Assembly: GCF_007970465.1 (NCBI RefSeq)
Contig: NZ_CP042429.1
Span: 930,001-994,000 of the forward strand
DNA: 64,000 bases
Origin: Corynebacterium nuruki S6-4
GTDB taxonomy: Bacteria > Actinomycetota > Actinomycetes > Mycobacteriales > Mycobacteriaceae
Direction of reading: 5' to 3'
In this document: positions 31,242 to 56,018 of the stretch, one piece after another
How positions within the stretch are numbered: the first letter of the stretch is position 1
How the letters are laid out: every line of letters begins with the position of its first letter
Translations under genes and position numbers: made by a program
The notes under the pieces: model-generated
What the model saw: only the letters and a program-made list of their open reading frames with translations
Databases searched by the model: none
What the model was told of the DNA's origin: nothing

Positions 31242-31898
31242 TCAGTCGCGGCGGGTGTTCTCCCGGTCCCGCTCGAGCCCGGCGAAGACGCCGGAGTTGA
31301 AGGCGAAGGCCTCCACTGCCGCTGCGAGCAGCCGTTCCTTCTCCGGCGCGGAGAAGTCGGCGGCGTCGAGCCGGGCGCGGTAGCCGTCGCGGTACGGCTT
31401 CGGCTTCCCGATCTCCGGGAAGTCGTAGAAGTTCAGGCCGGTCGACGGCACGCCGTAGTGGCGTCCCATCAGCCGGCCGATCACCTGGCCGCCCGCCAGA
31501 TCACCCAGGTAGCGGGTGTAGTGGTGGGCGACGAGCCCCGGGACGTCCCCGTCCCGGGCGATGCGCTGCAGTTCTGCGACATAGGCCGCCGTCTCCGGCA
31601 GCGGGTCCGCGTCGACGGTCCCGCCCAGGGCCGCCAGGTCGGCGGCGAGTCGCGCGCGACGGTCAAGACCCCGGTCGTCGACACTGTCCAGGCGGGAGTC
31701 GCCCGCCAGGGCCGCGACCGCGTCCTCCAGCGCCGAATAGAACAGGTAGGCCTGCTCCTGCAGCGCAGTGAACGCGGCGGCGTCCAGGTCCCCGTTGAGC
31801 AACTGTTCCATGTACGTGGAGTGTTCGGCCCGGTCATGAGCCTGGCGGGTCTCCTCGCGGAGCTGCTCGGAAAGGGTGGTGGTCGTTGTGCCGGTCAC
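31242..31898 (-). CDS. hmuO: heme oxygenase
   Basis: Degrades heme to biliverdin, CO and iron, 218 residues. The proximal His is in REETRQAHDRAEHS (about residue 21), and the distal helix LVAHHYTRYLGDLAGGQVIG keeps the Gly and Asp residues needed for oxygen activation. FYDFPEIGKPKPYRDGYR is also typical. GTG 31898 has AGAAGGA 7 nt upstream. The corynebacterial neighbourhood hmuO-glnE-glnA2 is kept, with a transporter inserted between. The array element at 31997-32127 lies about 100 bp upstream of the start. Confidence 0.95.
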   Translation of the reverse strand: MTGTTTTTLSEQLREETRQAHDRAEHSTYMEQLLNGDLDAAAFTALQEQAYLFYSALEDAVAALAGDSRLDSVDDRGLDRRARLAADLAALGGTVDADPLPETAAYVAELQRIARDGDVPGLVAHHYTRYLGDLAGGQVIGRLMGRHYGVPSTGLNFYDFPEIGKPKPYRDGYRARLDAADFSAPEKERLLAAAVEAFAFNSGVFAGLERDRENTRRD

Positions 31899-31996
31899 GG
31901 TCGGTCCTTCTCTCGGTCCTGTGGTCGCGTCTCCCGATGTTACTGAGGCAACCCTGTCCCCCACATCATCCGAAAGGTTGATTGGCGATGCCGACC

Positions 31997-32127
31997 GGCA
32001 GCGGATCTGCCAGCGTGGCAGCGGATCCGCCGGGATGGCAGCGGTAACGTCAGAGTGGCAGCGGTAAACGTCGCTCACCACCGTGGTGAACGACGTTTTC
32101 CGCTGCCAGAACGCAGGAACCGCTGCC
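31997..32127. repeat. 20-bp-phased core array with central palindrome, element 1
   Basis: GGCAGCGG occurs at 31997, 32017, 32037 and 32057 (exact 20-bp period), then inverted as CCGCTGCC at 32100 and 32120. The innermost pair bounds a 51-bp palindrome centred on 32082 (TCACCAC-C-GTGGTGA at its heart) whose 25-bp arms match at 23 positions. The 12 bp between cores are not conserved. It occupies the leader side of hmuO and the downstream side of hmuV. A related element lies at 49135-49285. No coding potential. Confidence 0.9.
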
Positions 32128-32133
32128 GCCCCG

Positions 32134-32961
32134 CTACGGCTCCGCGTGCGGGGTCGGCCGGATCCACAGCTGCCCGTCGACGTCGCTGACACTGACCGGC
32201 CACTCGTAGACCGTGGACAACCGCTCGGCGGTGCAGACCTCCCGCGGCGTCCCGACCGCCACGACCCGCCCCGCCGACAGCAGCGCCAGCCGGTCGCAGT
32301 ACCGCGCCGCGAGATTGAGGTCGTGGAGCACGACGAGCACACCCCGACCGGTCCCGTCCGCCGCCGTCTCGTGCGCCAGCGTGCGGGCGGTGACCATGGT
32401 CCGCTCCTGGTGACCGATGTCCATCGCGGCCGTCGGCTCATCGAGCAGCAGGCACCGCGCCCCCTGCGCCATCACCCGGGCGAACGCCACCCGGGCACGC
32501 TCACCACCGGACAGCGTGGTGATCTCCCGGTCCTGCAGTTCCGTCATCCCCACCGCCTCGAGACAGCCGTCGACGATCAGCCGGTCGGCCTGCGGGTCCC
32601 GCGGCCAGGCCGCCCGCCCCATCTGCACGACGTCCCGCACCAGGTGGGCGAAGGCGACGGTCGGGTCCTGCAGCATCACGGCCCGCGCCCGCGCTGCCTC
32701 CCGGGCGGAGTAGCCGGTGTAGGGCTCGCCGAGCAGGTCGACGCGCCCGGCGGACGGCGCCGTGTCCCCGGACAGCACCGACAGCAGTGTCGACTTGCCG
32801 GCCCCGTTCGGCCCGATGAGGCCGACGACCTCCCCGGCGTGCACCGCCAGGTCCACCCCGTGCAGGATCTCGCGGCCGCCGAGACCGACGACGGCGCCGG
32901 ACGCCTCGAGCAGCGTCTCCCCGCTCAGACTCCCACCGCTCACACCACTGATACCGCTCAT
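32134..32961 (-). CDS. hmuV: heme/iron ABC transporter ATP-binding protein
   Basis: ATPase of an FecCD-type importer, 275 residues. Walker A GPNGAGKST (about 48), signature LSGGERARVAFARV (about 155), Walker B CLLLDEP, and the H-loop VVLHDLN. The heme/iron assignment rests on the permease type and on the location next to hmuO; ferric siderophore uptake is the alternative. ATG 32961 overlaps the permease stop (ATGA). Confidence 0.85.
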   Translation of the reverse strand: MSGISGVSGGSLSGETLLEASGAVVGLGGREILHGVDLAVHAGEVVGLIGPNGAGKSTLLSVLSGDTAPSAGRVDLLGEPYTGYSAREAARARAVMLQDPTVAFAHLVRDVVQMGRAAWPRDPQADRLIVDGCLEAVGMTELQDREITTLSGGERARVAFARVMAQGARCLLLDEPTAAMDIGHQERTMVTARTLAHETAADGTGRGVLVVLHDLNLAARYCDRLALLSAGRVVAVGTPREVCTAERLSTVYEWPVSVSDVDGQLWIRPTPHAEP

Positions 32962-46415: not shown

Positions 46416-48857
46416 CTACTCGGCACTGTCGTCGGTGTCGCTGCCGCCGGTCTCACCGGCGGTGCGGTTCCGGCGCAGCTGGAACCCGAAGATCCCGGCG
46501 ATGATCACGGCGATCAGCGCGATGGCACTCGGGATCATCGAGGCAGGGTCCTTGATGAACGCGACGAGACCGCTGTCCGTGTCGTCCTTGTGCCCCGCAT
46601 CGGCGGCATTGTGGACGGTGACCTGCCCGTCGTTCTTCCGGGCGTGGTCCTTGTCGTCCTTGTGGTCCTTGTCGGATTCGTCCGCCGGCTTGTCACCGAG
46701 CGAGGCGCGGGACTTGTCGTCACAGCCGGACGACAGCGCCGCGCGGAAGCTCACCGGATCCAGGGCCGATCCGGCCTCGTAGAACCCGGCGAGTGCCGCC
46801 GCACCGTCGGAGGACAGGGTCGCGCCCGCCTTACCGTCCAGGACGTCGTCCTTCACGGACGCCGAGTTGATGCTCAGTTGCGCCAGCGCGATCCGTCCGA
46901 AGTCCTGCGGGTGGCCCTCCGTGTCATTGGAACTGACGTTGGCGACGAGGGTGCCGCCGGAGCCGTCGATGCGGATCTCCGGGTCGGAGATGGTCGTGCG
47001 CAGCACACCGCCGTGCCCGGTGAACAGCACCGAGCCGCCGAACTTCAGGGTGCCGGAGGAGACGGTTCCGCCACTGACCTTCACCGAGCCGTCGGACCCG
47101 CTGAACACGAAGTTGCCGGAACTGTAGACGGCGCCTCCGGTGGGCGTCCAGTCACCCTTGGCGATGCTGCCCTTGATGTAGGAGCGGAAGGATTCCTTGA
47201 TGCCCCAGCCCATGCGGTCCTCGACGACCTTCCGGTCACCGTCGGACGCCTTGCAGGTCGTGTCGGCCGAGCCGGCGCCCGATGTTGCGGCACCCGCCGT
47301 CCCGACGACCCGGGGAGCACGCGACATGCCCAGATCCGGGGTCCCGGTCGACACGTCGCCGGAGGCTGCGGCGCCGCCGGAGGTGGCCGCCCCCGCGGAC
47401 TGCAGTCCGCCCAGGCCGGCACCACCGCAGTCGCCGCTGGTGTTCAGGGCGATGTTGATCGGGTCCGCCTCGTTGTTGCCTTCGCCGTACTGGCCGCCGA
47501 GAGACTGGTTGCCGTCCTCGGTGATGTAGCCGGGACCGCTGAGGTTGACGGCACCGCCGCTGATCGGCTGGCCGAGGGTGAACTGGGCGATCGGGACCTG
47601 GCTGCCGGTCTTCGCCCCGGTGACCGTGGCGCCGGCGGTGAAGCTGCTCACGGTGGTGCTCCGGTAGTCGGCGATGAACTGCGCCGTCGTCCCGCGGACC
47701 TTCACGCTCATGTTCGTGTACGTGATGTCGAGGGCGCCGAGGTGGCCGGTGAGGTGGATGGAACCCGGGAGCGGGATATCGGCGTCCTGCCCGGAGACCC
47801 GGACCGCAGAGGGGTCGGCGGTGAACTGGAAGGCACCGTCGTCCCCGCCCTGGCTGCCGCTGAAGCCGACGCCGTCCAGGTCCCAGTGGCCGCCGGCGAT
47901 CGGGCCGGTCAGGTAGCTGCGGAAGGACTTCTTCAGACCCCAGCCGACCGACGCGGAGTTCACGGTGCCGCAGCTTCCGGCGTCGGCCGGCTGCCCGGTC
48001 GTCGTGGCCTGCGGTGCCGCCTGTGCCGCCGGGGCGGCCTGCTGTGCCGCGGGGGCGGCAGCCGCCTGGCCGGGTTCCGGGTTACGGTCGGGCTGTCCCG
48101 GCGACGTCGCCATCACGGCGTTGTCGTCGACGGCACAGTGCCCGCCCGGTGCGGTGCCGAGAGTGACGGTGACCGGGTCGCCGTCGTTCTTGCCCTCGCC
48201 GTAGCTGCCGAGCAGTCCCTTGTTGAGGTTCTCGTGGATCCAGCTGGTACCGGTGAGCGTCGCGGAGCCGCCCTGGGCGCCCGCCTGCGTGAGCGTCTGG
48301 TCGAGGGTGAAGGTCGCCACGGGCTGCTGGGTGAAGGCCGGGGCGCCGCCGGCGATACTGGACAGCGCCGCGGGGTCGGCGGCCAGGTACCGGCCGTCGG
48401 CGAGCAGCTGGGCCTTCGTCCCGCGGATCTGCAGGGTGAAGTTGGAGAGGGTGACGTCGATGATTCCGCCGTGACCGGTGAGCTTGAGAGTTCCCGGCAT
48501 CGGCAGGTCGGCGGCGTCCCCCTGCACGGCGGAACGCCCGGGATCGGCGGTGAAGTGGAATGCGCCGTCAGCCGCGTTGTTCTCCCCGGTGTACGTCACA
48601 TGGTCGAGATCCCAGTGTCCACCGGCGATCGGACCGGTGATGTAGTTGCGCAGCGACTGCTTGATGCCCCAGGACATCTCCCCCGAGGTGACCGCCAGGC
48701 ACTGGTCAGACGCCGCCTCGTCGGCGACGGCGGCGGGCAGCGCGGCGGTCGGCAGCACGGCGACGCCCACCAGGGGCAGGGTCGACGCGACGGCTGCCGC
48801 CGAGGCGACTCGCAGGGCTCGGGGTGACCGGCGGGAAGCCGGGCGGCTAGCTGACAT
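46416..48857 (-). CDS. htaA: three-domain HtaA heme-binding surface protein
   Basis: Cell-envelope heme receptor, 813 residues. A signal peptide ends near PAAVADEA. Three HtaA domains follow, each opening with WGIKxSLRNYI / WGLKKSFRSYL / WGIKESFRSYI and containing LTGHGG, LTGHLG and FTGHGG, which carry the conserved Tyr and His used for heme binding. Low-complexity linkers join them. A single transmembrane helix (IPSAIALIAVIIAGIFGFQL) and basic tail anchor it. AGGAG lies 10 nt before ATG 48857; ATG 48866 would be too close. A DtxR-like box and the phased-repeat element 2 lie upstream. The usual hmuTUV neighbours are not here. Confidence 0.9.
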   Translation of the reverse strand: MSASRPASRRSPRALRVASAAAVASTLPLVGVAVLPTAALPAAVADEAASDQCLAVTSGEMSWGIKQSLRNYITGPIAGGHWDLDHVTYTGENNAADGAFHFTADPGRSAVQGDAADLPMPGTLKLTGHGGIIDVTLSNFTLQIRGTKAQLLADGRYLAADPAALSSIAGGAPAFTQQPVATFTLDQTLTQAGAQGGSATLTGTSWIHENLNKGLLGSYGEGKNDGDPVTVTLGTAPGGHCAVDDNAVMATSPGQPDRNPEPGQAAAAPAAQQAAPAAQAAPQATTTGQPADAGSCGTVNSASVGWGLKKSFRSYLTGPIAGGHWDLDGVGFSGSQGGDDGAFQFTADPSAVRVSGQDADIPLPGSIHLTGHLGALDITYTNMSVKVRGTTAQFIADYRSTTVSSFTAGATVTGAKTGSQVPIAQFTLGQPISGGAVNLSGPGYITEDGNQSLGGQYGEGNNEADPINIALNTSGDCGGAGLGGLQSAGAATSGGAAASGDVSTGTPDLGMSRAPRVVGTAGAATSGAGSADTTCKASDGDRKVVEDRMGWGIKESFRSYIKGSIAKGDWTPTGGAVYSSGNFVFSGSDGSVKVSGGTVSSGTLKFGGSVLFTGHGGVLRTTISDPEIRIDGSGGTLVANVSSNDTEGHPQDFGRIALAQLSINSASVKDDVLDGKAGATLSSDGAAALAGFYEAGSALDPVSFRAALSSGCDDKSRASLGDKPADESDKDHKDDKDHARKNDGQVTVHNAADAGHKDDTDSGLVAFIKDPASMIPSAIALIAVIIAGIFGFQLRRNRTAGETGGSDTDDSAE

Positions 48858-48932
48858 GGACAACATTCTCCTGGGACACGTCTCAGGGCCGCGGTTGTGT
48901 CCGGATCTCCGGTGTCCGCGACCCCCTTTCAC

Positions 48933-48951
48933 TTAGGCAAGGCTAGTCCAC
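48933..48951 (-). promoter_or_regulatory. DtxR-like iron box upstream of htaA
   Basis: Read on the plus strand, TTAGGCAAGGCTAGTCCAC matches 13 of 19 positions of the DtxR consensus, including TTAGG and AGGCTA. It is about 75 bp upstream of the htaA start, in the right place for iron repression of a heme receptor. The box is near-palindromic so strand is nominal. Confidence 0.7.
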
Positions 48952-49134
48952 TTTCAGGGTCTCCCCAAGCAGAGCAGGCACTCCAGGTCGCGCAACGTGA
49001 CAGAATTCACACAGGGGCCGCCGGGTGCGCCGGATGCAGGCCTGTCGGGTGTGCCGGGTGTGTGCCACACACCCCCCGGCCGCACAGCCCGCCGGCCGCG
49101 CCGGCCACCTCACCACTCCGCCACGCCGCCCAGC

Positions 49135-49285
49135 GGCAGGCCAGGGTCCCCGTCGGCAGGCCAACCGCTCAGCCGGCAGGCCGGCTGTCAGACCGACAGG
49201 CCAACTGCCCGCCTGGCAGGCATAAACAACGTTCACCAGGGGTACGGCGGCACTTTTGGCCTGCCACGCGAACAGATGGCCTGCC
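49135..49285. repeat. 20-bp-phased core array with central unit, element 2
   Basis: GGCAGGCC-type cores start at 49135, 49155, 49175, 49195 (GACAGGCC) and 49215 (GGCAGGCA), an exact 20-bp period. Inverted GGCCTGCC cores are at 49258 and 49278, again 20 bp apart. The central unit from first inner core to last inner core is 51 bp, the same as element 1, and shares TAAAC--CG-TCACCA and TTTT at the same offsets. Its inner palindrome is less complete than in element 1. It fills part of the 640-bp gap between htaA and tRNA-Val; the rest of that gap (48952-49134, 49286-49499) shows no gene. Confidence 0.88.
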
Positions 49286-49499
49286 AGCCCGCCCCCGACC
49301 AGACGGAAACTGTTTTCAGTCGGTGTGATGCCGTCAATTACCGCCCTGGGAACGTGGTCGCGACGCAGCGGAGTCAGAATGTGGTCACGGATGAGGAACA
49401 GGGCACCACGGATGCACCACGGATGCACCACGGAGTCACCGGACATAGAAAAACCAGCCTGCTCTACCCTCGTAAGAGAAAGAACACGCCGGTCACTGA

Positions 49500-50350: not shown

Positions 50351-53134
<2,784 letters not shown>

Positions 53135-55872: not shown

Positions 55873-55963
55873 TTGTCCCGGATTGCCCCGAGTTGTTCCG
55901 AGTTGACCCGGATCGGTCGGTTCCGTCGGGTCGGGAACGCAGAATCGGGTCAGCTCGGGACAG
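55873..55963. repeat. 10-bp-phased array with inverted partners upstream of lldD
   Basis: Four consecutive 10-bp units, TTGTCCCGGA, TTGCCCCGAG, TTGTTCCGAG, TTGACCCGGA (55873-55912). After a 31-bp spacer come two inverted 10-bp units whose complements are CTGACCCGAT and CTGTCCCGAG (55944-55963). The layout (direct array, spacer, two inverted units) recalls the 20-bp-phased elements, with a different core. It is 115-205 bp upstream of the lldD start, so it could also be a regulator array. Confidence 0.65.
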
Positions 55964-56018
55964 ACCCGCTCCAGAGGCCCCCGCCGGGCCGGCACTGAAA
56001 CCGCACCCGGATACGACT

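Follow-up and report, generated by a model that had tools for sequence, protein, structure and literature searches.

Phased inverted arrays dispersed in Corynebacterium nuruki and related species, and their association with a gene for a predicted nuclease

The bacterial repeats designated REP/BIME and MITE are short, palindromic, mostly intergenic, dispersed and lineage-specific, and the element described here is like them in each of these respects. Unlike them it possesses phased multi-unit arms and a variable core within a fixed geometry, with neither terminal inverted ends nor target duplication seen; and while REP/BIME sequences are associated with a RAYT (Y1) transposase, the protein associated with this element has another predicted fold. 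The foldback elements of Drosophila carry inverted arms of tandem short repeats in variable unit number. The arms of our element are built in the same manner, but it is bacterial and far smaller, and has a fixed central unit and a linked gene for a predicted nuclease. A literature search found no such element.

Two groups of proteins are comparable to the product of this gene. The AbiEi and Rv2827c antitoxins have a fold like that predicted for its residues ~65-285; according to PMC7319586, members of this group recognise inverted repeats located in the promoters of their own genes, and the binding of AbiEi proteins to paired inverted repeats shows positive cooperativity in one case and negative cooperativity in another. 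The system considered here differs from these in the predicted fusion to a nuclease, in arrays of cores at 20 bp around a fixed centre, and in sites dispersed throughout the genome. The Vsr-like EDxHD homing endonucleases (I-Bth0305I) are alike in predicted nuclease fold, whereas here the gene is free-standing between two whole arrays, and many solo arrays occupy places not shared with relatives.

The window, i.e., the whole stretch of 64,000 nucleotides of C. nuruki S6-4 that was analysed, contains two elements (Table 1). The core type of the five direct repeats of element 2 is GGCAGGCC. The preliminary description had reported five direct cores at 20-bp spacing followed by two inverted cores 20 bp apart, a central unit of 51 bp, and TAAAC..CG.TCACCA and a run of T placed equally in element 1; we find all of these, the T run as TTT, every step being 20 bp and the central unit occupying 49215-49265. 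As also described, each of the two has a heme gene downstream of it and turns its longer arm towards that gene. A later model, R2, matches both window elements on the + strand at E ≤ 8.4e-10, the match to element 2 covering 49195-49285 (E 8.4e-10); both elements belong to its training set.

Table 1. Positions of features in the window and of gene loci flanked by elements
Feature	Position	Strand	Remarks
Element 1	31997..32127	.	lies upstream of the heme oxygenase gene; cores GGCAGCGG, centre palindromic (class 3-3)
htaA-like gene	46416..48932	-	Pfam HtaA, E 2.6e-106, three domain stretches; longest ORF starts 202 bp from element 2
TTAGGCAAGGCTAGTC box	48933..48948	+	presumably iron-box-like; also in three relatives without the element here
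Extra own-lineage DNA containing element 2	~48975..49440	.	approximate borders; shorter intervals in G243, G024 and G258, without element
Element 2	49135..49285	.	33-bp centre between five left and two right units; solo copy, class 3-2
Left arm, four outer 20-bp units	49135..49214	+	cores at 49135 (GGCAGGCCA), 49155, 49175 and 49195 (GACAGGCCA)
Left inner core GGCAGGCAT	49215..49223	+	
33-bp centre	49224..49256	+	half-site AAACAACGTTCACC (type 3); from the right reading inwards AAAGTGCCGCC (type 2)
Right inner core	49257..49265	-	
Right outer unit	49266..49285	-	inverted core 49277-49285
Gene loci flanked on both sides	own pair 1572642/1575711		also G101, G075 C50, G243 (twice), G024, G258 C20 and G134
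Gene loci flanked on one side			G028 and G258 C22

The pattern of element 2 is beyond chance: two cores in the arrangement GGCAGNNNA-N11-GGCAGNNNA match 89 times in its own 3.17-Mb genome, compared with a single match for the reversed control. Thirty-two complete elements (those of the window and of 30 further stretches) were identified; in every one the steps are exactly 20 bp and the centre measures 33 bp. Of the 33 places found, one inside a gene (1651452) was discarded, and the set likewise excludes the four copies at 52825, 150827, 1335613 and 1972069, which are one-sided or odd. All 32 centres start with AAA and 30 end with TTT. The unit consensus, derived from 112 non-inner units, is Y followed by GGCAGSSCANCYGTYCGNNY, with C3 and G5 invariant. 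Under a lenient core rule the arms comprise one to seven units on the left and two to eight on the right, and are unequal in 19 of the 32 elements. By a crude, GC3-based gene caller 27 elements lie wholly between ORFs and five overlap the ends of called ORFs.

At least one type 3 half-site (AAACGNCGTTCACC) is present in 27 of the 32 centres. The half-centres define classes 3-2 (12 elements, including element 2), 3-7 (10), 3-3 (three, including element 1) and 3-1 (two), together with five elements lacking type 3; the centre of the 3-3 class is palindromic. The best match of element 2 is the element at 1607850 of the same genome (78 of 91 positions). Among 3-2 elements the flank matches held in common are short and mostly to other repeats, and seven of the ten 3-7 elements form part of a longer composite that also contains another repeat family, one of the seven being embedded on one side only. 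The genome contains further repeats. A second dispersed palindromic family, CCCGAGTTGACCCGG...GAATCGGGTCAGCTCGGG, is found at 55900-55965 of the window and at 52935, 151168, 922300, 1433487 and other places of the genome, and flanks the 3-7 class. A third consists of near-palindromic AGATACTGCACTCCCTGTCACCG hairpins (150915, 498188, 1395097, 1458253, 1792423, 2477954 and 3082863), some of which end in CGTTCACC, resembling the type 3 half-site. Half-sites of the form TAAAC..CGTTCACCA also occur without arrays at 1392162 and 2022696 (L003 and L005).

Twelve of the 32 complete elements are located between 1.33 and 1.66 Mb. Since dnaA is at 2.178 Mb and what we take to be the dif site is at 0.606 Mb (a dif-like sequence with two mismatches to the pattern as we assume it), this cluster lies in mid-arm, and enrichment at the terminus was rejected. 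The collections searched, which may omit near records, gave no useful phage or plasmid match of either element or protein; the only match in the contig collection, to one Syntrophomonadaceae contig, was taken as chance.

The geometry extends to relatives (kinship being judged by genome labels and aceE identity). A core-free scan of 120 stretches of relatives, 2.4 Mb in all, over periods of 14-30 and spans of 36-74, returned 61 loci. The period was 20 in 11 of these, including seven of the eight best-scoring. Low-scoring loci occur equally often at period 15 (10 loci), period 27 (9) and period 20 (11); it is among the high scores that period 20 is in excess. Nine of the 11 were accepted as elements; of the other two, one is weak and the other a simple tandem repeat. 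A first covariance model, built from 18 elements and scoring at most 17 candidates per genome, found matches in 11 of 242 genomes of the genus at E ≤ 0.01, that in G025 being weak and partial; a second model (32 rows) found matches in 11 of 13 chosen genomes, G028 included, and none in G207 or G200. Match counts from these models include both strands of a palindrome. Together, scan and models place this geometry, with cores of other sequence, in 11 related species, C. nuruki included. The cores are GTCATCGNA in G101 and G075, GCCATCCGG in G243, GCCCTGGGT, GTCATGAGA and others in G258, GGCAGATGC in G194 and G003, and GGCATCCCG in G024. GNCAK is the left inner core in 30 of the 32 cross-species rows (A2) and is found in all four cores in 27; in 23 rows the centre has a left GTCG or a right CGAC, and in 15 it has both. 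The GGCAG/AAA/TTT pattern, which is blind to other cores, occurs genus-wide at 32 places in the own genome and as chance-like matches in eight others. In G123 we observed another geometry, in which inverted arrays of period 19 enclose a short centre (L180:4046 and L182:8949).

The preliminary description had further proposed that the cores co-vary, differing between elements while the two arms of each agree. In 31 elements of the own genome the tails of the inner cores agree between arms (p=0.0007). Outer-core tails show no agreement beyond chance in the same 31 elements (p=0.14) or inside the 3-2 class, and in the 12 elements of that class the inner-core tails show none either (p=0.62); the agreement within this genome is in part a class effect. 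Across species the agreement is strong. In the A2 rows 87% of mirror cells pair, compared with 44% or less when the arms are slid, and 21 of 26 mirror pairs have changed on both sides, although the relatives' rows in A1 and A2 come partly from scans favouring arm likeness, which biases core agreement upward. One of five A2 measures (further pair types) was equalled by 40 of 500 shuffles. We regard the agreement between species, as read from these alignments, as real. No mirroring between arms was found in the spacers (p=0.96), while neighbouring spacers within one arm are similar (6.45 versus 4.91 of 11 positions). Inner cores that agree between unmirrored spacers form the pattern that would be expected of protein-binding sites.

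Two explanations that involve no protein bear on these data. A structured RNA or single-stranded DNA hairpin would make the arms agree through pairing, much as the doubly changed mirror pairs and the 87% of paired cells might indicate; but the unit number differs between arms in the majority of own elements, the spacers are unmirrored, and the rows were chosen partly for arm likeness, and we consider a hairpin very improbable. Agreement could also be purely mutational and functionless, arising from tandem duplication within an arm and templated correction of imperfect palindromes. The likeness of adjacent spacers is in keeping with such a process, which we nevertheless judge very improbable, given that cores are kept while the spacers between them drift and that exact spacing is maintained across species. 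A better fit than a hairpin is tandem growth together with selection on sites of protein size that share one helical face.

In G101 (L249) a 399-aa ORF is flanked by two elements, one array lying 41 bp before its first start codon; the relative orientation of this pair is less clear (73 versus 69 of 90). A protein search of 242 genomes revealed 13 loci at 44% identity or more, of which eight are flanked by elements on both sides, two on one side and two have none listed, with G258 C4 outside the tally. The crude chance of at least 10 of 12 loci being flanked is ~1e-18. All eight genomes with the gene have elements, compared with three of the 234 others (Fisher 6e-13, ignoring kinship); G028 is counted as element-bearing through the second model alone, which was run on 13 genomes. 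This genome has just two element places, one of them 326 bp from the gene match. In C. nuruki the gene between 1572642 and 1575711 is split into a C-terminal ORF, a 414-aa ORF of a Mutator-family transposase, and an N-terminal ORF. The two flanking elements share the class and orientation of element 2, matching each other in 77 of 91 positions and element 2 in 73 and 69 of 91, respectively. The same Mutator-family transposase (L057 3485-4729; L066 3180-4424) also adjoins 2475869/2476358.

The association between gene and element is strong, and there are cases that count against its being a functional one of the selfish kind proposed below. No element is among the matches listed near the intact own copy at 2208943 or near G075 C31:34649. 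Elements are present in G194, G003 and G030, where the homologs have 30-35% identity and none is listed beside an element; between the G003 pair C426:63905 and 65467, 1.5 kb apart, no nuclease homolog was found. Apart from these cases, more distant family members (e.g., L133, L142 and L194) have no listed element nearby. G081 contains seven scattered homologs of 32-33% identity, perhaps another multiplying family.

The protein (P0001) matches no Pfam or NCBIfam model at E 1. Over 30 family members Pfam gave one weak DUF559 match (0.071) and one weak Acetyltransf_6 match (0.03), and a PDB sequence search with the protein profile returned one meaningless match. From structure prediction, residues ~65-285 would form a putative AbiEi-like DNA-binding part and residues ~290-391 a Vsr/I-Bth0305I-like nuclease. 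Foldseek matches AbiEi at a modest E of 6e-4, which, like the lack of Pfam and NCBIfam matches, is a further point against the selfish reading; the Vsr-like fold is present by prediction. The single neighbouring ORF scanned for AbiEii, in L249, belongs to an NAD(P)H-binding family. A protein partner of DDE or Y1 type had been anticipated; a protein does co-occur with the elements, and its predicted fold is AbiEi-like and Vsr-like instead.

Could the element be a MITE-like, non-autonomous transposon moved by an unrelated transposase, with the nuclease gene a passenger between two copies? It is mostly intergenic, lineage-specific and present in many copies, most 3-7 elements are carried within larger composite repeats, and transposase-like ORFs adjoin 97473, 1510152 and 2476358, with another between 1572642 and 1575711. 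These adjoining ORFs, however, belong to different families, whereas the gene between element pairs is of one family in seven species. By eye, the 24-bp flanks outside the outermost cores of the 32 own elements contain no conserved terminal inverted ends and, 3-7 composites excepted, share only the usual pyrimidine; nor was any target-site duplication seen in these flanks, where the ragged arms blur the border. Because there is neither a conserved outer border nor a visible target duplication, ordinary transposition is unlikely, and we hold this MITE-like explanation to be quite doubtful.

The position of element 2 had suggested a link to heme utilization. Element 1 is situated by an ORF (31242-32441) matching Pfam Heme_oxygenase at E 1.5e-48, and element 2 by the htaA-like gene. 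Upstream of htaA a TTAGGYAAGGCTAGTC box is present regardless of the element, being kept in the htaA-tRNA interval of three relatives; this interval contains no element in G243, G024 or G258, and there is none beside the heme oxygenase gene (hmuO) in G243, the sole relative tested. A site of the HrrA, ChrA or DtxR heme-iron regulon would be expected to persist upstream of one and the same heme gene in relatives, which these two elements do not. Eleven own elements were compared with their syntenic places in relatives, using genes from the crude GC3-based caller; merging of 19 rows gave 15 distinct comparisons, and in none was the element found. The neighbours used are in some rows as much as 3.5 kb apart, and presence was judged by nine element places. 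The empty syntenic places imply that the elements move or turn over. Pfam results for 53 of 54 neighbouring ORFs (of at least 90 aa) of the other 30 elements are mostly to unrelated families, the heme-labelled ones being HemD (at 1607850) and an HbpS-like protein (at 3083043); cytochrome b is found beside 922395 and CopC beside 500152. In all, four of the 32 own elements have heme-labelled neighbours, a raw count, and all four places are empty in the relative or relatives tested. All three 3-3 elements adjoin a heme or copper gene by Pfam (500152, CopC; 962057, Heme_oxygenase; 3083043, HbpS-like), and their syntenic places are likewise empty, two in G243/G030 or G243 and the third in G258. The proposed heme link is therefore not supported by synteny, and what stands of it is the proximity in these four cases.

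A host regulon, in which the AbiEi-like protein would be a regulator or nucleoid protein, the dispersed arrays its operators and the flanking arrays autoregulatory, has several of these facts on its side. AbiEi and Rv2827c act at inverted repeats in their own promoters, as noted above; the G101 array is close to the start codon; the spacing is exactly helical; and the proximity of class 3-3 to heme or copper genes and of four elements to heme-labelled ones, which speaks against a selfish reading, leaves regulation open. Another point against selfishness is that orthologous acyl-CoA dehydrogenase genes have an element downstream both in the own genome (97473) and in G258, there with a different core, which could represent a conserved site. 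Against a regulon, no tested syntenic place keeps its site, the four heme-labelled ones included, arrays are found on the 3' side of the gene as well, the annotated neighbours are mostly of unrelated function, and the cores vary among elements within one genome. A regulon seems to us unlikely.

We incline, if only slightly, to the interpretation that element 2 is a solo binding array of a nuclease-driven, dispersed selfish element found in a group of related Corynebacterium species. We are led to it by the 32 exactly spaced copies, the recurrence of their geometry in relatives under other cores, the association with one gene, the 15 syntenic comparisons that lacked the element and the predicted folds. 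The element would serve as a binding platform, in which GNCAK-type cores recur at 20-bp intervals along one helical face and both arms point inwards towards a centre that often has GTCG...CGAC halves. The AbiEi-like part would load along the arms and the nuclease would nick or cleave the centre or DNA close to it, whereupon repair might copy the DNA of the element, and of the gene, to other places. Where elements flank the gene, the one close before its start may repress it, and solo elements would be what remains once flanking copies had recombined. From lineage to lineage the cores change, presumably together with the protein. That this amounts to a new class of selfish element is a possibility we advance tentatively: an AbiEi-like reader joined to a Vsr-like nuclease, whose sites are phased inverted arrays, a fixed geometry with fast core turnover, reader and sites that co-diverge by species, and solo arrays spread via breaks and repair and not by transposon ends.

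If this is true, a nuclease family unrecognised by Pfam and NCBIfam models would gain a defined DNA target, and bacteria would have a mobile element that keeps its geometry while changing its sequence. It would offer a tractable system in which a DNA reader can be followed as it changes jointly with dozens of sites in the genome, and intergenic repeats of a class easily mistaken for regulatory sites would have an explanation.
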